From NCBI RefSeq assembly GCF_000015765.1, contig NC_008942.1:821921-885920 (forward strand): a stretch of 64,000 bases of DNA, written 5' to 3'. The stretch is from Methanocorpusculum labreanum Z (GTDB lineage Archaea > Halobacteriota > Methanomicrobia > Methanomicrobiales > Methanocorpusculaceae). Below the pieces are notes generated by a model that saw only the letters and a list, made by a program, of their open reading frames with translations, was not told where the DNA came from and searched no databases. Of the stretch, positions 4,018-31,948 are shown piece by piece. Positions within the stretch are counted from its first letter, which is position 1. Every line of letters begins with the position of its first letter. The translations under genes and the position numbers were made by a program.

Positions 4018-4370
4018 TTTCTGGAGTTAATCCTCTCACCATTTAACACTTTTAATATCCAAAATCAGCCATCCATCTGTCTATTTTTCTACTATCTTTC
4101 ACTCCTCCTCACAGGAGCCGCTGGGGCGGCGACAGGATTTGCCCGAACGTTCCCGATGAGGGATGAACCGGCGGGACGATAAGGACCGCCGAGTTCAAGT
4201 GAGGAAAAGCAAATCCGATTCTGGGAGCAAGCCAAAGGCTTGCGGGATTCGCGCCGATTCGCGGTTGGTTTTTATCTCTTGTGTCCGCACTAATGCCGTA
4301 CACGAAATCGAAGTACATCTCAACGTATGTCAGTTTTTTCGGTTGAGATCACGTAGCGTATATCCCATCT
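4018..4370. other. Intergenic region with family-2 repeat remnant
   Basis: This 350-bp gap has no convincing gene. It holds a GC-rich stretch at 4105-4200 and a partial family-2 element at 4220-4292 in minus orientation. The remnant keeps the GATTCGCGG end, the flanking TTATCTCTTGTGTCCGCAC and one small hairpin (GCAAGCC, loop AAA, GGCTTGC), but lacks the terminator-like end found in full copies. The flank at 4285-4320 (GTGTCCGCAC...GTACACGAAATC) reappears in inverted form near 57,327-57,365. Confidence 0.6.
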
Positions 4371-12668: not shown

Positions 12669-15173
12669 TTAAAAAATTAATTCTGCATCACTTGAGGAGA
12701 TCACGCCGTACTCTTCATCATAGGAAATCGACGATGTGTTGAGAGTGTAGGATCCGGTATCCCCAATAGGCGATATATCTTCCTTAGTGAGTAATTGCTC
12801 CAAATCACCATAAAGGTTTACTGAATATTGCTGAGCTTTCTTTAAAAGTCGGAGTTTTTCCGTATATGATGCTTTACTCCCAAGTTCCCTGATGATATCG
12901 CTACCTTCATCATAGGGCACAATTACGGTTGTTGTGTTCTGATCAATCACCTCAAAAAATTTTCCGGCAGTAGAAAAAGCCTGACAAAGATAATAGGGGG
13001 ACTGACGGGTCTGCAGGTGCTGATCTGTATTGTATGCCTGAATGCTTTTCTCGTTTACTGATAGAAGTTCAAATATTGATCGACCAAGCGGAAGATCCAT
13101 TTGTTTTTTGCTTATCATCTCTTTGGTAATTGGATATCCCATTTCCCCATCCCGCGAGGTAAAATACTTTTGATAATAGGTATCGATCATCTTCTGGGAT
13201 AGGATATCATTATCGAATCCCGCAGGATTTTTGGCAAAATCACTCAGAACATGCTCTGCGCTTTTTTTCCCGAGGTCAATGTCTTTGAGTCCTGAGAGTT
13301 TTTCATCAGAACTGTTTACGATGAATACATCCCGACATTGGACATCGCCATTACGATTGCATCTTCCTGCCGCCTGGGCAATACTATCGATTCCGGCAGC
13401 GGAACGGATGACGCAATCAAAGGAGATGTCCACTCCGGCTTCTATCAACTGAGTGCTTACGCAGATCATCCGGTGATTCTTTATCTTAAGATCGTCTTTT
13501 ATCCTCTCCAGGCGGTTCCGACGATGTGCCGGGCATAAATTAGTGCTTAAATAATAGAGAGAGAGATCTTTGTAGGTAGTGAAATCAGTCAGTTTTTTCG
13601 CAGATAAATGTGCATAGAGATTTTTCACTGCAGTTTTCGTATTGAGAATGACCAGAATCTTCTCATTATTCTCTAGCTTATCTTCCACAAATTCCGCAAG
13701 TTCAGGGGCAGAGTATCCATTCTGCAAACGTTCATCGCAGACATTGGTTCTCCGAAACTTGCCGAAATCGACTGATACCATATCGGCAGGAGCCGACAGG
13801 CGTATCGGGGGATTGACTTTATCGAGTTTCGGCTGTGTTGCGGTGCAGAGAATGATCGTAGTTCCGCATATTTCTGAGAGGAAATTCAGAGCTGTATTAA
13901 ACATGCGAAGACATTTTACCGGAATCATCTGGACTTCATCAAAAATTATAATACTGTTTGCGAGATTGTGCATCCTCCTGATTGAACCAGCTTTTCCGAG
14001 AAACAAGGTATTGAGCATCTGGACCGTTGTTGTAAGAATGATTGGGGAATCCCATCTCTCGGTAAGCAGACGATAGTTTCGTCCTTCATCAGCGCCGGTT
14101 ATACTTTCATCGTTTTCATCAAGAGGATCTTCATAGACCAGATTCGAATGATGTTCCAGAATCAAATCATCTTCACGGAGAGCTTCGCGGATAACCTTAG
14201 CATTCTGATCAATGATCGTAGTAAAGGGAATTACGTAGAATATCCTTTCTTTGTTCCATTCTGCGGCATGAGCCAAAGCATAACGCAGACTGGAGAGAGT
14301 TTTTCCTCCCCCGGTTGGTACATTCAGTCGGTAGATACCGCTGGTTTTTTTCCCGAATGCCTTACAGGAAAGCGAGATTTCTTTTCTTAATTCATCAATA
14401 TCGTATATTATGGGTTTTTGATCCAGGAATTCATCCAGATTTTCTGCAAGTTTTTCCCATTTCTCCACAGCGATTTTCGGTGTATCTTTAGTGACGATGT
14501 TATCTTCAAAACAAAATGAATCGAAACGGTCTGCATCTATGACGCAGCTTAGAAGATACCGGGCCAGCATTCCCCTGGTAAATGTGATTTCATCTCCGGA
14601 TATCCCTAATCTGGATCTGTTTTTTTCATTGAAGGTTTTGACTTCATCTACCGCTTTGAGAAACAGGGTTTCCAACTCATCTTGGGATACGCAGTCATTT
14701 TCAAAGTTGTGTATGCTTTCTTCAAAATAGATTTCTTTTTCAGGGTTAATCCTCTTGAAAAATAGATCCTGTCCTTCCAGATCAATGCAATCGATCAAGC
14801 CGCCATGGTGGGAACAAATACCCAGTGCTATGAGTTGTGCAGTGAATCTTTCAAAATTATCGGTTGATTTATCATATTTTTCAAAAATATATTTTGCCCC
14901 GGCGGTTGAGTGATTTATTTTTCCCCGATAGCGTTTTCTGATCTCCGGATCATTGATTTTCAGATATTCCTGAAACTCCTGTTTTGCCTTTCCCGTATCA
15001 TGAAGTAAACCACATAACGCTGCGAGATTTGGACAGCCGATTCCTTCTCCATATCCTTTACAGAGATCGGAGACCGTTGTGCTGTGTTCAGCTAATGTTT
15101 GTTCCAGCTTTGTTTCATGATTAATATGGGCAAGGTACATAATTTTTCCAAGTAGTATCACTTTATCCTGCAT
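12669..15173 (-). CDS. cas3: Cas3 HD nuclease-helicase
   Basis: Single-chain Cas3 with an N-terminal HD nuclease (H30 in AEHS; H58-D59 in GLLHDTGK) followed by an SF2 helicase (Walker A PTGGGKT, DEVQ box, CTATQP, C-terminal AAGRCNRNG motif VI). Recruited by Cascade, it unwinds and degrades target DNA. All motifs are intact. Two possible starts: ATG 15173 or ATG 15140 (MYLAHINHET); the second fits the usual family N-terminus. First gene of the minus-strand effector operon, divergent from cas4. Confidence 0.95.
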   Translation of the reverse strand: MQDKVILLGKIMYLAHINHETKLEQTLAEHSTTVSDLCKGYGEGIGCPNLAALCGLLHDTGKAKQEFQEYLKINDPEIRKRYRGKINHSTAGAKYIFEKYDKSTDNFERFTAQLIALGICSHHGGLIDCIDLEGQDLFFKRINPEKEIYFEESIHNFENDCVSQDELETLFLKAVDEVKTFNEKNRSRLGISGDEITFTRGMLARYLLSCVIDADRFDSFCFEDNIVTKDTPKIAVEKWEKLAENLDEFLDQKPIIYDIDELRKEISLSCKAFGKKTSGIYRLNVPTGGGKTLSSLRYALAHAAEWNKERIFYVIPFTTIIDQNAKVIREALREDDLILEHHSNLVYEDPLDENDESITGADEGRNYRLLTERWDSPIILTTTVQMLNTLFLGKAGSIRRMHNLANSIIIFDEVQMIPVKCLRMFNTALNFLSEICGTTIILCTATQPKLDKVNPPIRLSAPADMVSVDFGKFRRTNVCDERLQNGYSAPELAEFVEDKLENNEKILVILNTKTAVKNLYAHLSAKKLTDFTTYKDLSLYYLSTNLCPAHRRNRLERIKDDLKIKNHRMICVSTQLIEAGVDISFDCVIRSAAGIDSIAQAAGRCNRNGDVQCRDVFIVNSSDEKLSGLKDIDLGKKSAEHVLSDFAKNPAGFDNDILSQKMIDTYYQKYFTSRDGEMGYPITKEMISKKQMDLPLGRSIFELLSVNEKSIQAYNTDQHLQTRQSPYYLCQAFSTAGKFFEVIDQNTTTVIVPYDEGSDIIRELGSKASYTEKLRLLKKAQQYSVNLYGDLEQLLTKEDISPIGDTGSYTLNTSSISYDEEYGVISSSDAELIF

Positions 15174-15276
15174 AAACGAAGTAGTTTTGCAAAAACTTAC
15201 TGAAATTCGAAACGAGATAAAATTCTATAGTACTTCCCGGGATACTTTGAAGTATTCTCACTCTGTATTATCCATT
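15174..15276. promoter_or_regulatory. Divergent promoter region between cas3 and cas4
   Basis: About 100 bp separating the effector and adaptation operons. It contains the AT-rich ATAAAATTCTATAG (15217-15230), suitable as a TATA element for cas4, and an inverted repeat ATACTT-TG-AAGTAT at 15242-15255 between it and the cas4 start. The inverted repeat is a candidate operator for an unknown repressor; this is inference only. GTTTTGCAAAA near 15184 is a second short palindrome next to the cas3 start. Confidence 0.5.
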
Positions 15277-15951
15277 ATGAACCCGGACGACTACCTCATG
15301 TTAAGCGGGATCCAGCATTACGCCTTCTGTCCGCGTCAGTGGGCACTGATCCACGTAGAACAACTCTGGGCGGAAAACTCACTTACTTTCTCGGGAAAAC
15401 TGATGCACGACAATGCCGACGATCCCTTTTTCGTGGAGGCGCGGGGCGATACCCTCGTTTCCCGCAGCATTCCACTCGTATCCCACAATCTGAAAATCTA
15501 TGGGATCGCCGACGTCGTCGAGTTTCACCGCTCGCCATCCGGGGTACGTATTGCAAACAGAGACGGATTTTGGGAGGTCGTCCCCATTGAATACAAACGC
15601 GGAAAGAAAAAAGCGGATGACTGTGACGAGGTCCAGCTCTGCTGTCAGGCGATCTGCCTCGAAGAGATGTACGAAACGGAAATTCCTGCCGGATATCTGT
15701 ATTACGGAAAAACCCGGCATCGAACGGAGGTGATCTTTGACGAAGAATTACGGGAACGTGTCGTGTCTCTTATTCGGGAAATGTATGCACTCTACGAAAA
15801 CGGGATCACGCCCGCTGCCGAGCTGAAAAAGCAGTGTGACAGTTGTTCGATCCGGGATCTTTGCGTTCCAACTATATCTTCACGAAAAAAATCAGTCGAC
15901 CGGTATCTTGATTCGGTACTACAGGGGTATTCTCATGAGAAAACTACGTAA
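15277..15951 (+). CDS. cas4: Cas4 PAM-selecting exonuclease
   Basis: Cas4 trims prespacers and helps Cas1-Cas2 choose spacers with a correct PAM. The protein has the PD-(D/E)XK core (IADVVEF and PIEYKRGK) and the four cysteines of the Fe-S cluster: one in HYAFCPRQW near the start and three in CDSCSIRDLC near the end. The frame is open from 15187, but the family start MNPDDYLMLSGIQHYAFC begins at ATG 15277. Overlaps cas1 by 17 nt. In most I-C loci cas4 follows cas7 on the same strand; here it is the first gene of a divergent operon. Confidence 0.93.
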   Translation: MNPDDYLMLSGIQHYAFCPRQWALIHVEQLWAENSLTFSGKLMHDNADDPFFVEARGDTLVSRSIPLVSHNLKIYGIADVVEFHRSPSGVRIANRDGFWEVVPIEYKRGKKKADDCDEVQLCCQAICLEEMYETEIPAGYLYYGKTRHRTEVIFDEELRERVVSLIREMYALYENGITPAAELKKQCDSCSIRDLCVPTISSRKKSVDRYLDSVLQGYSHEKTT

Positions 15952-16969
15952 TGTTTTGTATGTGACAAATCCCAAGTCCTATCTTTCGCGGGACGGGGAA
16001 AGTATCGTTGTATCCGTTGAAAACCAGGAACTTGCCAGAGTCCCGATCCGTAATCTGGAGGGGGTCGTTTGTTTCGGGTATATGGGGGCAAGTCCGGGGA
16101 TGATGGCGCTCTGCACGGAAAATGATGTGGGCATGTGTTTTGTTTCGCCTTATGGAAAATTTATGGCACGGATCGGTGGAAATGTTTCGGGAAATGTGCT
16201 GCTCCGGAAACGTCAGTACGCCGTTTCGGATGATGAGGAAGCATCGAAAAAGATCGCGGCATACTGCATTCTCGGGAAACTGATGAACTGCCGGACGGTC
16301 CTTCAGCGGTTTTCCCGCGATTATCCGGATATGGTGTCGAGGGAGTTCGAGCAGAATTTCAAACGGCTGTCTGAGGGGATCCTCCAAATCCGAGCTGGGA
16401 CCTGTGGTTCGCTGAATGAGCTGAGAGGCTTTGAGGGGATCCTGTCTAAGTATTATTTTCACAGTTTCAATGATCTGATCCTGTCAACGGAACCGGAGTT
16501 CTCGTTTGAAAACAGGTCAAGGCGTCCTCCTCTGGATCGGGTGAATGCATTGCTTTCATTTTCCTATACGCTGATCGCGGCTGATTGTGCGTCTGCTCTG
16601 GAGTCGGTGGGTCTCGATCCGCAGGTCGGTTTTTTGCACCGGGTCCGGCCTGGAAGACCAAGTCTGGCTCTCGATCTGATGGAGGAGTTTCGCCCGTATC
16701 TTGGCGATAGGTTTGTGCTGAGTCTCATCAATAATCGGGTGGTGAAAGCCGATGATTTCGCGGTGAAGGAGAACGGAGCGGTTTTGCTGACGGATGATGC
16801 CCGAAAGACGGTCCTGCAGGCATGGCAGAAGCGAAAGAAGGAGGAGGTCATGCATGGGTATCTGGAGGAGAAGATGCCTGTGGGTCTTTTGCCCTATGCC
16901 CAGGCGATGCTTCTCGCCCGTTTTCTCCGGGGAGATATCGACGGGTATCCGCCGTTTGTGGTGAGGTGA
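15935..16969 (+). CDS. cas1: Cas1 integrase
   Basis: 344 residues, starting at ATG 15935 (MRKLRNVLYVTNPKSYL) inside the end of cas4. Cas1 catalyses spacer integration with Cas2. Metal ligands are present: E167 in LRGFEG, H235 in VGFLHRVRPG, and D247/E250 in LALDLMEEFRP. An N-terminal beta sandwich and C-terminal helical domain of usual size are implied by length. Three bases separate it from cas2. Confidence 0.95.
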   Translation: MRKLRNVLYVTNPKSYLSRDGESIVVSVENQELARVPIRNLEGVVCFGYMGASPGMMALCTENDVGMCFVSPYGKFMARIGGNVSGNVLLRKRQYAVSDDEEASKKIAAYCILGKLMNCRTVLQRFSRDYPDMVSREFEQNFKRLSEGILQIRAGTCGSLNELRGFEGILSKYYFHSFNDLILSTEPEFSFENRSRRPPLDRVNALLSFSYTLIAADCASALESVGLDPQVGFLHRVRPGRPSLALDLMEEFRPYLGDRFVLSLINNRVVKADDFAVKENGAVLLTDDARKTVLQAWQKRKKEEVMHGYLEEKMPVGLLPYAQAMLLARFLRGDIDGYPPFVVR

Positions 16970-16972
16970 GAG

Positions 16973-17263
16973 ATGTTTGTTTTGGTTACGTATGATGTGA
17001 ATACGGAGACGCCGGAGGGAAGACGCCGGCTTCGCCAGGTGGCACGGATCTGTAAAAATTACGGGGTCAGGGTGCAGAATTCGGTGTTTGAGTGTGTAGT
17101 GGATTCAGTGCAGCTGATGGAGTTGAAGTTCAAGATAGGAGAGGTTATTAATTCTGAGACGGATAGTGTTAGATATTATAATCTCGGAAAGCAGGGCAGG
17201 GATCATGTTGAGCATGTGGGCGCAAAGCCGGGTTTGAATGTGGATGATGCGCTGATTTTTTGA
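16973..17263 (+). CDS. cas2: Cas2
   Basis: 96 residues with the ferredoxin-like start MFVLVTYDVNTETPEGRRRL, including the conserved aspartate D8, and the RVQNSVFEC strand. Cas2 dimerises and bridges the two Cas1 dimers during spacer acquisition. Immediately followed by a T-run and the array leader. Confidence 0.95.
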   Translation: MFVLVTYDVNTETPEGRRRLRQVARICKNYGVRVQNSVFECVVDSVQLMELKFKIGEVINSETDSVRYYNLGKQGRDHVEHVGAKPGLNVDDALIF

Positions 17264-17458
17264 ATCTTTTTTTCGCGAAGGTGTTGTGCCCATGATTTTT
17301 CCGGGGGGTTCGCGGTGTCTGCAGTTTTTGGTTTGTTTTTTGGTGTGAGTTATTTCTGATTTATTTCCATATGAAAATCCACGTTTGCGTGTGGAATCTT
17401 CTTCAGAGGGGGAAGGGAGAGGATTATATGCGTGGAGTTATAGTATATTAGATTTAGA
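17264..17458 (+). promoter_or_regulatory. CRISPR leader of the main array
   Basis: 195 bp without a gene between cas2 and the first repeat. It opens with a T-rich tract (17254-17274) that may end the cas transcript, contains the small palindrome CACG-TTTG-CGTG near 17390, a GA-rich stretch (17405-17420), and the TATA-like AGTTATAGTATATTA close to the first repeat. This is the end where new spacers should enter, which agrees with the perfectly uniform repeats there. Confidence 0.7.
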
Positions 17459-18719
17459 GTCGTGCCCCCGTGGGCACGTGGATTGAAATGCTGCGAGGAT
17501 ATTCTGTTCGCGCTGGATCAGAGTCGTGCCCCCGTGGGCACGTGGATTGAAATCCAAATTCAAAGGCATGAACTGGGTGATCCGACCTGTCGTGCCCCCG
17601 TGGGCACGTGGATTGAAATTGTTGTTTTCAAAATTATCGCATTAACTAATCTATCATCTTGTCGTGCCCCCGTGGGCACGTGGATTGAAATTGTTGTCTC
17701 TGACGACCTCTTCGCGTGGCAAAAGTCGTGCCCCCGTGGGCACGTGGATTGAAATGATACGATTGAATCCAAAGCCACGACGATCAAGTCGTGCCCCCGT
17801 GGGCACGTGGATTGAAATTACCGGTAATACATACGTCGCTAAACAGTGGTAGTCGTGCCCCCGTGGGCACGTGGATTGAAATACAGTGTATGTACCTGAA
17901 TATCCTTGAACTGTAGTCGTGCCCCCGTGGGCACGTGGATTGAAATATACTGGGCGCCGTATCCGGACACAACCGCCCCGCGTCGTGCCCCCCGTGGGCA
18001 CGTGGATTGAAATTTGCGATCTGATTATAAGACATACCTTTTTTATGTCGTGCCCCCCGTGGGCACGTGGATTGAAATATATATATGGTGTTGGAATCAT
18101 CAAAACCATCAGTCGTGCCCCCCGTGGGCACGTGGATTGAAATCAAGACAAAGAGGACAAAATGACAACCGATCCCGGTCGTGCCCCCCGTGGGCACGTG
18201 GATTGAAATCTGTTTCCTTCGGTGGGACTGGTGCCACATCTGAGTCGTGCCCCCCGTGGGCACGTGGATTGAAATATCTCCTTTCTTGTATAGTAATAAT
18301 AGTATTCAAGTCGTGCCCCCCGTGGGCACGTGGATTGAAATATGTCTTCTTTGTTCTGTGTCATTCTAATCTCCAGTCGTGCCCCCCGTGGGCACGTGGA
18401 TTGAAATCTTCGACGCCTGATATACCGTTAAGTTTAGACGTCGTGCCCCCCGTGGGCACGTGGATTGAAATCAAGACTCGCGTATAGATATAGCCGAAAT
18501 ATAGTCGTGCCCCCCGCGGGCACGTGGATTGAAATGAATCTGAGTTCATGCCGCGGGTAAAGCGGTATCGTCGTGCCCCTTGTGGGCACGTGGATTGAAA
18601 TCTCAACATCAACGAGGGAGATATCCTTGGAGTCCGTCGTGCCCCCTGTGGGCACGTGGATTGAAATAATGATGGGCGCAGTATCGATGCATTCGCCGCG
18701 TTGTGCCCCTCGTGGGCAC
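17459..18719 (+). CRISPR. Main type I-C CRISPR array: 20 repeats, 19 spacers
   Basis: Repeats begin GTCGTGCCCC and end GCACGTGGATTGAAAT, so the 5' handle and the stem (GTGCCCCC/GGGGGCAC-like) fit type I-C. Repeat starts: 17459, 17523, 17589, 17661, 17725, 17788, 17852, 17916, 17982, 18047, 18112, 18178, 18244, 18310, 18376, 18440, 18504, 18570, 18636, 18700. Repeats 1-8 are 31 nt (five C); repeats 9-16 are 32 nt (six C); 17-19 carry substitutions; the last keeps only its first ~20 nt. Spacers are 32-36 nt except the third (41 nt). I recognise no spacer source. Confidence 0.98.
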
Positions 18720-18982
18720 TCCAATCATTTTTACATACTGTATCTCAACTCAAACCTTACACGAAATCGATGAACATCCCAAAATGTCAATGCAACTCTT
18801 TTCTACAGAATCAAGCATAGAGGATATCTCCACCGCGGGCCGACTCGCAAGTCTAACGACTTGCTCAGCTAAGATCGCCGACTATGCCGTCGATCCGCCT
18901 CCGCGCCGGATCGCAAGTCTATCAACTTGCTCAGCTGAGGCCGCCCCTGTGGGGCAGCCCGCAGTCACCTCCCGCACCCCGA
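18720..18982. repeat. Array trailer plus family-1 hairpin mosaic (minus orientation)
   Basis: 18720-18821 is the trailer and is homologous, inverted, to the trailer of the relic array (around 8721-8810). Shared blocks include CAATCATTTTT, CCAAAATGTCAATG and CATAGAGGATAT. It runs directly into a family-1 element from 18822 to about 18982, with three hairpin modules (GCAAGTC.TAACGACTTGC-type, twice, and GCCCCTGTGGGGC) and an end reading CCCGCACCCC. No gene is supported here; a frame through it reads MSMQLFSTESSIEDIS, similar to MSMSASSPESNIEDIS from the relic trailer, but this is explained by the DNA homology. Confidence 0.75.
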
Positions 18983-19478: not shown

Positions 19479-19592
19479 TTCTTTTATCCTATTCCTTACA
19501 CGGCACGATCTCGACCGAACTTAAACGAAATGATTTTGTATCCTCAATCATGGTGAAGGATTATTGATTTTTGCGGACCCATGAAATAATTC

Positions 19593-19785
19593 AACCGCGA
19601 ATCTCCGCGAATTCCCGCGAATCGCATTTTTCTTGCGTCGTCGTGCTCTGCTCCGGCTTATGCGTGCAAATCGAAGATTTGCGTGCCGCCTCAAACAGGC
19701 TTTGCCTGTTTGGGCTTCGCCTACGCAGGAATCGCACGCCGCCTGGAAAAATGCTATGGGAAAAACCGGCGTGCCGGTTTTTCTT
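19593..19785 (+). repeat. Family-2 palindromic element, copy A (left arm of GxxExxY cassette)
   Basis: Starts AACCGCGAATCTCCGCGAAT, continues with the conserved GCTCTGCTCCGGC, and ends in a terminator-like hairpin (ACCGGC-GT-GCCGGT followed by T-run). Compared with copies C and E it has about 54 extra bases (19660-19713) carrying two small hairpins (GCAAATC-GAA-GATTTGC and CAAACAGGC-TTT-GCCTGTTTG). It is the inverted partner of 20266-20457. The 19479-19592 gap before it holds nothing else I can identify. Confidence 0.8.
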
Positions 19786-19826
19786 TAGGGAAAATCATAT
19801 ATTTTTGAAAGAAAATAAAAAGAATC

Positions 19827-20264
19827 ATGGATCATATTGTGGAAAACCCCGAGATTCTCTATCCAGATGAAGTTCACAAAATAATCGGCTGTGCCATGAC
19901 CGTCTATAATACCTTGGGACGCGGATTTTTGGAATCCGTCTATCAGGACGCCCTGGAAGTAGAACTGGAATTGCAGGAAATTCCCTTTGAACACAAAAAA
20001 CATCTGAATATTTTCTATAAAGGCGTGAAACTTCCGAGTTATTATCAGGCGGATGTTGTCTGTTATAATAAGATCATCCTTGAGCTGAAAACTGAGACGG
20101 AGTTAGTCAAAGAGGACGAGGCACAGCTCATCAATTATCTGAAAGCGACCGGAATCAAACTTGGGATTCTCATAAATTTTGGAAAAAAACGGAAACTCGA
20201 ATGGCGTCGAGTCATATATTCCGATGAACGATATCTGAATAATGCTAATATTCCAAGCGAGTAA
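19827..20264 (+). CDS. GxxExxY protein (PD-(D/E)XK nuclease-like)
   Basis: 145 residues with the family signature GFLESVY at 33-39, a conserved YQADVVCYNKIILELKTE segment (D...ELK resembles a PD-(D/E)XK active site) and LGILINFG near the end. The family is widespread in environmental bacteria and archaea; its function is not established, and a nuclease role is inference from the fold motif. The gene lies exactly between two inverted family-2 elements: 41 bp from the left one and 1 bp from the right one. It therefore looks like the cargo of a small element. Confidence 0.85.
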   Translation: MDHIVENPEILYPDEVHKIIGCAMTVYNTLGRGFLESVYQDALEVELELQEIPFEHKKHLNIFYKGVKLPSYYQADVVCYNKIILELKTETELVKEDEAQLINYLKATGIKLGILINFGKKRKLEWRRVIYSDERYLNNANIPSE

Positions 20265-20265
20265 A

Positions 20266-20457
20266 AGAAAAACCCGCACGCGGGTTTTTCCCTAGCATTT
20301 TTCCAGACGGCGTGCGATTCCTGCGCAGGCGAAGCCCAAACAGGCAAAGCCTGTTTGAGGCGGCACGCAAATCTTCGATTTGCACGCATAAGCCGGAGCA
20401 GAGCACGACGACGCAAGAAAAATGCGATTCGCGGGAATTCGCGGAGATTCGCGGTTA
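20266..20457 (-). repeat. Family-2 palindromic element, copy B (right arm of GxxExxY cassette)
   Basis: Inverted relative to copy A and nearly identical over its whole length, including the two extra hairpin modules (20332-20389). The terminator-like stem here is ACCCGC/GCGGGT instead of ACCGGC/GCCGGT, so the two arms of the stem changed together. It starts directly after the GxxExxY stop codon and ends at the CGCGGTTAAAT edge, about 40 bp before the feoB-associated small gene. Confidence 0.8.
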
Positions 20458-20497
20458 AATAATCTCATGTATCCACACCAACCCCGATTAAATCCCC

Positions 20498-20656
20498 TTA
20501 TTTCTGATTCATCTTACACATGCTGCAGTTTTTGCATGATTTTGCTCTGCAGCCGCATGCTTCCCCCCGCAGATTCTTCTTCACCGCCCACAGAAACAAA
20601 AGAACGATTCCTGCCGCGATAAAAATAAAAAGGATCGTCCAGAATCCTTCAGGCAA
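20498..20656 (-). CDS. FeoB-associated Cys-rich membrane protein
   Basis: A 52-residue frame starting at TTG 20656, overlapping the last codons of feoB. One membrane helix ([19 protein letters not shown]) is followed by a basic turn and a cysteine-rich tail (CGC...C..C..C, five to six Cys). Small proteins of exactly this layout follow feoB in many genomes and probably help ferrous iron transfer; the role is not proven. TTG is the only sensible start because no ATG precedes the helix. Confidence 0.8.
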
Positions 20657-24421: not shown

Positions 24422-24495
24422 AACAAGCACTTACGCGTTGTTGAGGTGGATTCAATACTGGAAGGGTAAGGTTGGATATGGACACATGAAATACT

Positions 24496-24634
24496 GAACC
24501 GCGAATCTCCGCGAATTAACGCGAATCGCATTATTCTTGCGCCGTCGTGCTCTGCTCCGTCTGATCGCCTGCGCAGGAATCGCACGCCGTCTGGAAAAAT
24601 GCTGACGGAAAAACCCGCGTGCGGGTTTTTCTTT
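24496..24634 (+). repeat. Family-2 palindromic element, copy C
   Basis: Short form (about 139 bp) without the extra hairpin modules. Begins AACCGCGAATCTCCGCGAAT and ends with the ACCCGC-GT-GCGGGT hairpin and T-run, which may also end transcription of the MFS gene upstream. The 24422-24495 flank contains GAATCCACC/CCAACCTTACC-like sequence shared in inverted form with the outer flanks of copies D and F. Confidence 0.75.
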
Positions 24635-24828
24635 GATCATTATAATTTTTGCTCATAAGACTGATGATATGTTTTCAAATCAGATGATTCAATTAACCAA
24701 TCTGGAATTATCATTGATGATGAATGTTATTGGGAAATGGAATAACTATTCATAGCATATTCAACGAAAGCATTCGAGGAATATTGGACACACTCGTATC
24801 CATTATAAAATAAGATTATAGAATCACT

Positions 24829-26610
24829 TCATAAATTAATTGACTTTTCAAATACCTTTTTACCAGTTGTTAAGAGAGTTAACACTACCGTGTATTCACC
24901 TACTAGTATTCTTGGCGTAGCAATAATAACGGAAAAACCATTCCTTCCCCCCGATCTAATTACTTTCATTGTGGAAAATATACGTGGGTTACGAAGTTGA
25001 TTAAATGCAAATATTGCTCTTTGTGGAATTTCCTTTGTAGTTATTTCTACAGAAAGTTGCGTATCTATTGGTAAATTTGTTTGACCCGAGATTTCTAGTT
25101 TACCAGCTTTCTGCTTTATTATAAAATTATTTATTTCAGGATCCTGACGAACAAAGGCTAATCTCACATAAATATCATTTTCTGTAGAGTCAATAAGATT
25201 GCATATTTTGTCCACAATTCCGGGTGTTGAATTGTTTGCATCAAGCAGTATCATTGATTCAGATTCTATTTTGTCCAAATTATCCGTACTTACTTTCCCA
25301 ATGCCATGTTGAGTCGGTGAGTAGTAGAATTGTCTTACATCTCCATACTTAGATGTACTTGGCATCTGAAGAATTAATAAATACGTCATTCCTACTTCAA
25401 GAGATTTTAAGAGTTCATATGGGAAGGTATAAATATAATCATCATTTTGGATGGAAATTGGAAAATAATCTATTAATTTATCTTTTGTACATAACCAAGC
25501 GAGTAATGATGGCTGCTTTGTTAGTGCATTTCCCCGAACATATGTTTGAACCCCTGGAATTAGAGGTGATGTATTGCTTGTTGCGGTAAGGAATGGTGTT
25601 TTTAGCGTTATTAAGAACGTTTTATAATCATGAAATGGTTGTGTGTTAATCGGATAAGGAGAAACGATGAATTTTAATATCCCTCCTTCATGCACCAATC
25701 TATTTCTCACATCACGATCAGTGAATGTATCTCGTGGATTCCAAAGGGTCGCCCATGAAAAATCATTAAGAACTGGTATCTGAAGGAATTTTTCCCCATG
25801 CTTACCAATAGGGAGAAACTCATTTTGAGTCAATGGTGTATTAGTGCTCCCGTTTTTCGTGAGATACAAGTAAACAGAATCACTATCTAAATAAGTTGAC
25901 GTTCCATTTATCTGAAGCGTCTCATGAGTATAGAGATTATCAGTGTTCCCAGCTATCGTTAGTTGCTTTAATATTTCTGTTTGCTGTGATGAAATTGGAG
26001 TGCTACTATCTCTTGTTAATAATTTAATCTGATATGATATGTCATGGAATACTGCAGAAACCAATTCCTGTGTATTGGCATATTTTTTAATATGATGATT
26101 CTTTTTGATTTTAGCTTTGAATTTGATGAGTTTTTTAGCATTAACATCTTTATCAACATATATTGGATGTATCACTGCCTTTTCTTCATCAATGCAATAA
26201 GCAAGAATACGAATTTTTTCGTTTTTTAATGCATTATCATATTCGATTTCTGTATATGATTTTCCATTGAGTTCACCATTATTTCCGTTATCACTGATAT
26301 ATGGCGAACCATATCGCATCCCAATGACTAAAACAAATATTTTTGCTTCATCTAATTCTCCAAGACATGTATCCAAGGGTGATTCAGGTCTGGCTCCGAA
26401 TTCTTCCATTGCAATTGGGATTAATCCCATCTGCTGAATGAGAAGAGTTATTGCAAATCTTTCACTTTGAAGATCATCTTTCGTGGAACTGAGAAATACT
26501 GGAATGGAGAGGTTGTCAAATTTATTATCACCCACGGTATTTCGTATGTAATCTTCGATTGTTTCTTCTGCTTCTTGCTTTATATTTAGATTATTACTAT
26601 TAATCATCAT
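24829..26610 (-). CDS. DUF4062 domain protein in an AT-rich island
   Basis: 593 residues. The N-terminal ~150 residues form a DUF4062 (TIR-like fold) domain: SIPVFLSSTKDDLQSERFAI, the acidic EEFGARPESP, VIGMRYGSP and SYTEIEYDNAL. The rest is beta-rich with no motif I know. TIR-like domains in prokaryotes often work in defence by cleaving NAD+; a defence role here is inference. Base composition is much more AT-rich than the neighbours, and the gene stands alone between two family-2 elements, which suggests horizontal gain. Confidence 0.75.
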   Translation of the reverse strand: MMINSNNLNIKQEAEETIEDYIRNTVGDNKFDNLSIPVFLSSTKDDLQSERFAITLLIQQMGLIPIAMEEFGARPESPLDTCLGELDEAKIFVLVIGMRYGSPYISDNGNNGELNGKSYTEIEYDNALKNEKIRILAYCIDEEKAVIHPIYVDKDVNAKKLIKFKAKIKKNHHIKKYANTQELVSAVFHDISYQIKLLTRDSSTPISSQQTEILKQLTIAGNTDNLYTHETLQINGTSTYLDSDSVYLYLTKNGSTNTPLTQNEFLPIGKHGEKFLQIPVLNDFSWATLWNPRDTFTDRDVRNRLVHEGGILKFIVSPYPINTQPFHDYKTFLITLKTPFLTATSNTSPLIPGVQTYVRGNALTKQPSLLAWLCTKDKLIDYFPISIQNDDYIYTFPYELLKSLEVGMTYLLILQMPSTSKYGDVRQFYYSPTQHGIGKVSTDNLDKIESESMILLDANNSTPGIVDKICNLIDSTENDIYVRLAFVRQDPEINNFIIKQKAGKLEISGQTNLPIDTQLSVEITTKEIPQRAIFAFNQLRNPRIFSTMKVIRSGGRNGFSVIIATPRILVGEYTVVLTLLTTGKKVFEKSINL

Positions 26611-26988
26611 CTTTTACTGGTCAAAACTTGAATGCGAGAAGTTGTATTTTCTATTTTGGTTGGGAAATATGATAAAACTACTTGCTATGAATCAAAATTT
26701 GATAATAATTCCCCTTATTACAAAAAATATGATTTTTCGGTTATGCTATCATAAGGTGCATCAAAGATACACTATAAAATCCCAGATGCACCTTCATTGC
26801 CCAAATTCTAAACAGAGTTGTTTATATAAATCTCTACGTACTCAAAACAATACAAGCCCTCATTTACATTCAAACTTACATTTGTTGAGCGGGGTGACTT
26901 GTTCATCAACCAGCCCAAATCACCTTTTCATGAAATGATTATATTTGGAGACTTGCCATCAGATGAATGAGGGAGATAAATTCAATGA
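26611..26988. other. AT-rich intergenic region, no supported gene
   Basis: The 5' side of the DUF4062 gene. A 98-codon frame exists here, but its composition (many Asn, His, Ser, Lys without structure) and lack of a ribosome-binding site argue against a gene. AATATGATAAAAC and TTGTATTTTC are possible promoter elements for the DUF4062 gene. Confidence 0.5.
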
Positions 26989-27125
26989 AAAAAAAACCGG
27001 CACGCCGGTTTTTTCGACAGCATTTTTCAAGTGAGGGTGCGATTCCTGCGTAGGCGATGAGCCGGAGCAGAGCACCCGAACGTAAGGAAAATGCGATTCG
27101 CGGGAATTCGTGGTGATTCGCGGTT
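26989..27125 (-). repeat. Family-2 palindromic element, copy D
   Basis: Starts with the terminator-like hairpin (ACCGGC-AC-GCCGGT) and ends GATTCGCGGTTGG with the conserved outer flank TTTTTATCTCATCTGTGCGCAC. Middle part reads GGTGCGATTCCTGCGTAGGCG and GCCGGAGCAGAGCACCC, the short form. It lies between the DUF4062 island and tRNA-Pro, opposite in direction to copy C on the other side of the island. Confidence 0.75.
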
Positions 27126-27279
27126 GGTTTTTATCTCATCTGTGCGCACCTAACCTTACCCCCTCCCGAATTGGATTAACACTAACACTGCAGAACTCCT
27201 ATTGAGAAAAATCCGGGATTTTTTCGGCCGGCAAAACCGCAACTTAATAAAGAGAGGAGAGCCAATATAAGTGGAGCAA

Positions 27280-31389: not shown

Positions 31390-31511
31390 TCTGCACGATC
31401 TGGTCTGCCTCTCATTTTTTTATATCCATTTTTTGTGGTATGAATCTCTCAACCCCCAATCATTTTTTTTGATTTCGTGTAAGAGATGGTGTATATCCAT
31501 GAGAAAGAACC

Positions 31512-31646
31512 AACCGCGAATCTCCGCGAATTAACGCGAATCGCATTTTCCTTACGTTCGGGTGCTCTGCTCCGGCTGATCGCCTGCGCAGAATCGCACC
31601 CTCTCTTGAAAAATGCTACAGGAAAAACCGGCGTGCCGGTTTTTCT
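31512..31646 (+). repeat. Family-2 palindromic element, copy E
   Basis: Short form; AACCGCGAATCTCCGCGAAT to the ACCGGC-GT-GCCGGT hairpin and T-run. Together with copy F, 47 bp away and inverted, it forms a pair with nothing between, i.e. the same arrangement as around the GxxExxY gene but empty. Confidence 0.75.
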
Positions 31647-31693: not shown

Positions 31694-31829
31694 AGAAAAA
31701 CCCGCACGCGGGTTTTTCCGTCAGCATTTTACCAGACGGCGTGCGATTCTGCGCAGGCGATCAGCCGGAGCAGAGCACGACGGCGCAAGAAAAATGCGAT
31801 TCGCGTTAATTCGCGGAGATTCGCGGTTA
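31694..31829 (-). repeat. Family-2 palindromic element, copy F
   Basis: Inverted partner of copy E. Its terminal stem is ACCCGC/GCGGGT while that of E is ACCGGC/GCCGGT, so the pair shows the same E-type/F-type difference as copies A and B. The outer flank (31830-31905, CGAATTGGATTGAGGATAAC) is shared with the flank of copy D at about 27166-27190. No gene lies in 31390-31968. Confidence 0.75.
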
Positions 31830-31948
31830 AATTATCTCTTGTCTCCACACCCAGTAATACCCTTCTCGAATTGGATTGAGGATAACGCCGCGTAACTTCT
31901 CTTCAAAAAAATCGTTCCTTTCGCGTGCTTTTCACACTGCTTCAAACG

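Follow-up and report, generated by a model that had tools for sequence, protein, structure and literature searches.

Mirror-image heptad arrays around GxxExxY genes suggest a small mobile element of a type not recognised before

Results

The unit in the window

The window analysed here is a 64,000-nt stretch (G000:C1:821921-885920) of the 1,804,962-bp genome of Methanocorpusculum labreanum Z; G- and L-numbers below are our handles for genomes and loci. A gene for a 145-aa protein of the PD-(D/E)XK superfamily, family GxxExxY (TIGR04256 / PF13366), lies on the plus strand at 19827..20264. It is enclosed by arm A (19572..19786, plus strand) and arm B (20264..20477, minus strand), both of which point at the gene. 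The arms are 94% complementary over 197 nt (19572-19768 versus 20281-20477), or 94.9% over 215 nt when one gap is allowed. The open reading frame starts 41 nt past arm A, and arm B begins no more than 2 nt from the stop codon. The inner ends carry palindromic hairpins, read from the sequence: the terminator-like GAAAAACCGGCGTGCCGGTTTTTC at 19760..19783 in arm A and GAAAAACCCGCACGCGGGTTTTTC at 20267..20290 in arm B. An earlier sequence-only reading of this DNA had described a nearly identical inverted pair, tight around the gene and with terminator-like inner hairpins, and all of this is borne out.

The outer portion of each arm consists of three CGCGAAT heptads with a period of 10, directed to the gene. 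They occupy 19596-19602, 19606-19612 and 19616-19622 in arm A and, as ATTCGCG on the plus strand, 20427-20433, 20437-20443 and 20447-20453 in arm B. Diverged sequences resembling the ends of a MITE lie further out, identified by eye and with approximate ends: a left end-like flank AGGACTTACGCGGTGTTGTGATCTTGACCGA... at 19490..19571 (plus strand) and AGGAGTTACGCGGTGTTGG at 20478..20504 (minus strand). Rfam searches gave no match near the gathering cut-off over the unit and no match over neighbouring GxxExxY loci, hence these sequences belong to no known RNA family.

Two other features of the window are of note. A CRISPR array with genes that are cas3-, cas4-, cas1- and cas2-like by sequence occupies 12669-18720, about 850 bp short of arm A; the nearby Cas4 is related to the GxxExxY fold. 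At 4244-4289 on the minus strand there is a diverged outer module, CCAACCGCGAATCGGCGCGAAT, which resembles the arms of another M. labreanum GxxExxY gene (L091).

The GxxExxY protein

The protein matches TIGR04256 with 141.2 bits (cut-off 35) over model positions 2-116 of 116, and PF13366 (PDDEXK_3) with 145 bits. E22, Y25, D62, E72, K74, Q86 and Y90, which form the GxxExxY motif, the D, the ExK and the QxxxY, are invariant in 17 sequences; in an alignment of 59 sequences the D, Q and Y are invariant and the E and K are conserved in at least 90%. By score, motif and conserved active site the protein is thus a clear member of the family. Its AlphaFold2 model (pLDDT 89.6) is best matched by Cas4 SSO0001 (E 4.8e-5) and lambda exonuclease, with RecE weaker; the TM-scores are modest (<=0.5), so the likeness to Cas4 and lambda exonuclease is a statement about the fold class. 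A sequence search of the PDB with the protein gave no meaningful match. A GxxExxY call has been reported at a locus where CRISPRone gave cas4 (PMC8934634). The literature searched, mostly non-subscription journals, gave neither a function nor a repeat association for TIGR04256 or PF13366. The array strings likewise had no match in mostly non-subscription journals, where shorter strings returned unrelated text such as primers.

Arm pairs in the M. labreanum genome

The census of outer modules in M. labreanum, drawn from genome stretches around arm and gene copies, gave 54 arms, which form 23 pairs, all of them inward-facing, and 8 solo copies; the pairing is far from chance. Most pairs are empty, and in 13 of the 23 the outer modules are separated by 176-183 bp. 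Three pairs enclose a GxxExxY gene, with 620-727 bp between the modules, and three more enclose genes for YdjM (1169 bp), a DUF4062 protein (2492 bp) and a PD-Lambda-4_A protein (4714 bp). All five GxxExxY genes of the genome are surrounded by inverted arms, two of them by arms of other sequence (CGCGAATCGGCGCGAAT arms at L091 and CACGAAA-type arrays at L092).

The window contains both gene-less and loaded pairs. Arms E (~31505..31646, plus strand) and F (~31694..31849, minus strand) are 47 nt apart and form the empty inverted pair that had been read there before. Copies C and D, earlier taken as solitary, turned out to be an inward-facing pair: arm C at 24480 (plus strand) and arm D at 27135 (minus strand) face each other with ~2.5 kb between them and bracket a gene on the minus strand (24829..26610) for a 593-aa protein with an N-terminal DUF4062. 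With its outer TIRs this loaded unit spans 24426..27200 (2775 bp).

Elsewhere in the genome, a family-2 inverted pair (L352, G000:C1:966651-971541) stands 4.7 kb apart around a gene for a 1278-aa PD-Lambda-4_A-like protein, to which PADLOC assigned PD-Lambda-4_A with E 1.7e-78. Three of the M. labreanum GxxExxY units adjoin a multi-copy gene whose ~165-aa product has no Pfam match (copies at L346 10995-11501 and L348 9054-9545 in G000; also in G016 and G014). An HTH or HNH-like gene lies near it, and the surroundings resemble integrated-element neighbourhoods. That GxxExxY units might be neighbours of rRNA operons was considered and rejected, since the flank they have in common proved to be a multi-copy protein gene.

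Units are present in M. labreanum and absent from sister species

In G016, G012, G003 and G014 dtxR and feoB, with a small Cys-rich ORF, are adjacent; in M. labreanum the entire A/B unit sits between them. The 2775-bp C/D unit is missing from the orthologous MFS-tRNA spacer in G016, G012, G003 and G020, and the empty pairs L066, L067 and L070 each have contiguous unoccupied sites in 2-3 relatives. At L071, L073, L079 and L080 searches with the joined flanks returned broken matches, and these sites were left out of the unoccupied-site evidence. Hence units vary in presence between sister species, while gene-less and cargo-bearing pairs of the same arms are multi-copy. Loss is possible in principle; insertion is the simpler reading, since the sites are independent and the unoccupied spacers clean. 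The occupied sites are unrelated intergenic places with no single conserved cognate site, and the earlier suggestion of a homing unit is therefore unsupported.

Many arm pairs, and the C/D unit at both ends, are surrounded by an outer TIR, TAGGASTTACGCGGTGTT. At L070 an 8-bp duplication, ACCTGAA(A/T), borders this TIR; it is the one clean target duplication, the others being degraded or unclear. Patterns of the TIR were found in 12 of the 25 Methanocorpusculum genomes, some of them in short copies (~130 bp in G017), which identifies the TIR as a separate MITE family. As many pairs lie inside this MITE, the latest jump of the window's unit may have gone via the outer MITE's transposase. No insertion with exact ends at the heptads was found. 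For the transposon-like unit with emptied copies that had been proposed, the absence from four sisters and the gene-less and loaded pairs speak in favour, but the outer TIR could explain the movement without GxxExxY; the search for empty sites and duplications found the former in the sisters, while the only clean duplication belongs to the TIR.

These observations could be explained by a DDE-type transposase that acts in trans on TAGGASTTACGCGGTGTT and carries the arms and the gene as passengers, with GxxExxY uninvolved. The outer position of the TIR, its bordering duplication at L070 and its short stand-alone copies in other species speak for this, and the arm units share with the MITEs of DDE transposons (PMC10969869) their shortness, multiple copies, inverted ends and intergenic location. 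However, the TIR is missing from L065, L068, L091 and L352, and the link between heptad arrays and GxxExxY exists without it, in many phyla where it was not seen. There the arrays fit the gene rather than the genome, and that they follow the protein would be left unexplained. We therefore regard a passenger role for the gene as unlikely.

Heptad arrays at GxxExxY loci across phyla

A contig scan with the GxxExxY alignment A2 (A1 was too diverse as a query) yielded 80 loci from a dozen phyla, namely those closest to the Methanocorpusculum proteins. In a motif-free test, which preceded any choice of motif, gene-spanning inverted repeats were present in 37% of 72 scored loci versus 0.5% of 365 control positions. 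The association of GxxExxY genes with inverted repeats extends across phyla.

The arms in these phyla are short arrays of heptads, roughly C[AG]C[GA][AG]A[TG] (CACGAAG, CGCGAAT, CGCAGAT, CACAGAT, CACGGAT and others), and the usual array at the 80 loci has three heptads at a 9- or 10-bp period. Counted with a regular expression derived from the same 80 loci, gene-directed arrays occur at 66-68% of flanks, away-pointing ones at 21-24%, and control windows contain ~4% per strand; at 74 of the 80 loci an array is present on one or both sides. The motif-free test and the concordance tests below do not depend in this manner on the choice of expression and loci. A TIGR04256 search of ten whole genomes found 30 loci, several of which also belong to the 80-locus set; 26 of them carry one or more arrays, 21 of these on both sides. 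Arms or arrays were not detected at five GxxExxY loci (L025, L026, L036, L037 and L029), so the genes do not always lie inside an inverted pair, as had been proposed for a check in related genomes.

The arrays at L120, L129, L157, L171 and the Geobacter loci L321-L325 often start with (TT)ATCCAC or ATCCACAGATT. These starts are close to the DnaA-box consensus TTATCCACA, possibly by coincidence.

Arrays match each other and the protein lineage

The two arrays of a locus match each other. The distance between upstream and downstream arrays is 0.48 within a locus and 1.84 when permuted, and none of 2000 permutations was as low. In the ten genomes the array distance is 0.37 within a locus versus 2.21 between GxxExxY genes of one genome; for example, the three GxxExxY genes of Geobacter have CGCGGAG/CGCAGAG, CACGGAG and CACGAAG arrays, respectively.

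Heptad type also follows the protein. The Mantel r between the two is 0.37, and for pairs from different phyla only it is 0.30 versus a maximum of 0.18 in within-phylum permutation. The nearest protein from a foreign phylum has the same heptad type in 39 of 74 cases (8.8 expected), and on the protein tree heptad type requires 23 changes, whereas none of 300 within-phylum shuffles needed fewer than 35. These permutations and shuffles show that host ancestry does not explain the match. Each gene and its arrays move and evolve as one. The simplest cause of the matching would be that each protein binds its own heptads.

Gene-less arrays in other genomes

In Herpetosiphon 429 array matches stand against 2 GxxExxY genes; the corresponding numbers are 203 and up to 7 for a Syntrophobacteraceae MAG and 15 and 3 for Geobacter. 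Reversed patterns, used as controls, gave 0 array matches. The five Geobacter doublets that were read are inverted, ~80-130 bp long and mostly unlike in their interiors.

In six Herpetosiphon species (G046, G051-G055; L291, L307-L314, L319) a GxxExxY gene and its arrays are kept at one site. The number of arrays at the aligned site varies between species, and no clean insertion end was found in the alignments. Besides this site, the genome contains arrays of this type by the hundred at dispersed positions. A gene that stays in place while its arrays vary matches what has been reported for RAYT genes and REPINs (PMC3116915). Vertical inheritance in relatives free of such repeats had been named as evidence against a mobile unit; in Herpetosiphon the gene is indeed vertical at one site in six species, but it is accompanied by arrays.

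Phased short intergenic repeats in several phyla have been published before, as the multicopy sets of Geobacter metallireducens and the TAACTGA repeats (PMC2700814, PMC4679880). The heptads named in these papers, GGACCGG, MTYCTGA and TAACTGA, differ from ours, and the repeats are interpreted there as regulatory elements; the passages concerned draw no link to a nuclease gene. Some of the published Geobacter sets may overlap with the GxxExxY heptad arrays.

Cargo and defence genes

Other genes are enclosed by 14 inward-facing pairs of GxxExxY genes (L042-L055) in Methanocorpusculum G002, G007, G010, G018 and G023. The cargo comprises DpnI (three times), MmeI-type IIG enzymes (three), a C5 methylase with a restriction enzyme, GmrSD, type I R-M systems (two), an HSDR_N protein, an IetA-like ATPase, a predicted lipoprotein and an HTH protein. 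An A-type and a B-type gene are clear in at least 11 of the 14 pairs and less clear in L045, L049 and L053; the two types are ~60% identical, and members of one type mostly 78-100%. The cassette at one site differs between genomes: it holds the lipoprotein in G010 and type I R-M in G018, and it is missing from G002 and G011. Heptad arrays were not found at these convergent pairs, so their tie to the arm-type units consists of the gene family and the layout, not of the repeats. Convergent cargo pairs as a general feature were rejected: a second gene copy is present at 3 of the 80 loci, always in tandem.

GxxExxY could also be a recombination-promoting nuclease, like lambda exonuclease or Rpn. 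The repeats would then be substrates of homologous recombination, and cargo, in many cases defence genes, would be swapped at fixed or dispersed sites. The predicted fold, which resembles lambda exonuclease and RecE, would suit this role, as would the mostly restriction-modification content of the convergent pairs, the different cargo at one site and the PD-Lambda-4, DUF4062 and YdjM genes between M. labreanum arms. Yet most arm pairs are empty, have a fixed spacing and lie at many unrelated sites, for which homologous exchange alone is insufficient. Moreover, the cargo-bearing gene pairs are without heptad arrays, and such a model does not call for heptad type to match the protein. We hold this reading to be rather improbable.

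The defence genes among neighbours and cargo, together with the closeness of the arrays to the gene, would also fit an immune or housekeeping nuclease whose arrays serve as self-recognition or operator sites. PADLOC, however, has no model that matches GxxExxY, and the mirror-image arrays, the dozens to hundreds of gene-less copies and the presence or absence between species fit a mobile repeat better. Of the explanations considered, we give this one little credence.

Discussion

We lean, with modest confidence, towards the view that the GxxExxY gene and its matched inverted arrays form a mobile nuclease-plus-repeat system, similar to REPIN/RAYT and run by a PD-(D/E)XK protein. According to this mechanism, the gene and the heptad arrays of both arms would make up one matched unit, a nuclease with its cognate end repeats. 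The Cas4/lambda-exonuclease-like protein would bind at both ends to the heptads, phased at roughly one turn of the helix, and would nick or resect the DNA there. The inverted pair with its contents, whether nothing, the GxxExxY gene or a cargo gene, would then be copied or recombined elsewhere. That the protein moves the units would be a step beyond heptad binding, for which REPIN/RAYT serves as the working analogy.

The layout and copy pattern resemble REPIN/RAYT. In both cases inverted short repeats flank the gene (PMC3116915, PMC2817692, PMC8266576), there are many intergenic gene-less inverted doublets of the same repeat (here in M. labreanum, Herpetosiphon and Geobacter), the repeat type is paired with the gene lineage, and the gene may stay vertical while the repeats are many. 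However, the enzyme there is an HUH Y1 transposase and here a PD-(D/E)XK protein resembling Cas4 and lambda exonuclease. The repeats there are tagged palindromes (GTAG or CGTC) and here phased triplets of non-palindromic heptads, and the GxxExxY gene is often present in more than one copy. The units are therefore not members of REPIN/RAYT, from which they differ in enzyme and repeat form. Several findings count against the mechanism that we favour: in Herpetosiphon the gene keeps its site by vertical inheritance, arrays could not be detected at some GxxExxY genes, the window's unit and many pairs have an outer TIR from another MITE family, to which the only clean target duplication can be ascribed, and no insertion was found to end exactly at the heptads.

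A wider reading, which we put forward tentatively and hold to be less probable than the mechanism itself, would make GxxExxY proteins the enzymes of a pan-prokaryotic class of mobile DNA that has no name yet and is bounded by phased heptad triplets. A given protein would read its own heptad and spread gene-less doublets in trans, and the inverted ends would shuttle R-M and other defence genes. In the gut-type Methanocorpusculum the shuttling ends would be the A/B pair of GxxExxY genes themselves.

The layout of a gene with miniature inverted repeats is already known; the enzyme class, the repeat form and the breadth appear to be new. Our results give a testable role to a common protein family, GxxExxY, and to arrays of the CACGAAT/CGCAGAT type, which are strewn across many genomes. 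If the proposed mechanism is true, a mobile-repeat system would be run by a minimal enzyme similar to Cas4 and lambda exonuclease. The units also suggest a candidate carrier for small archaeal defence genes.
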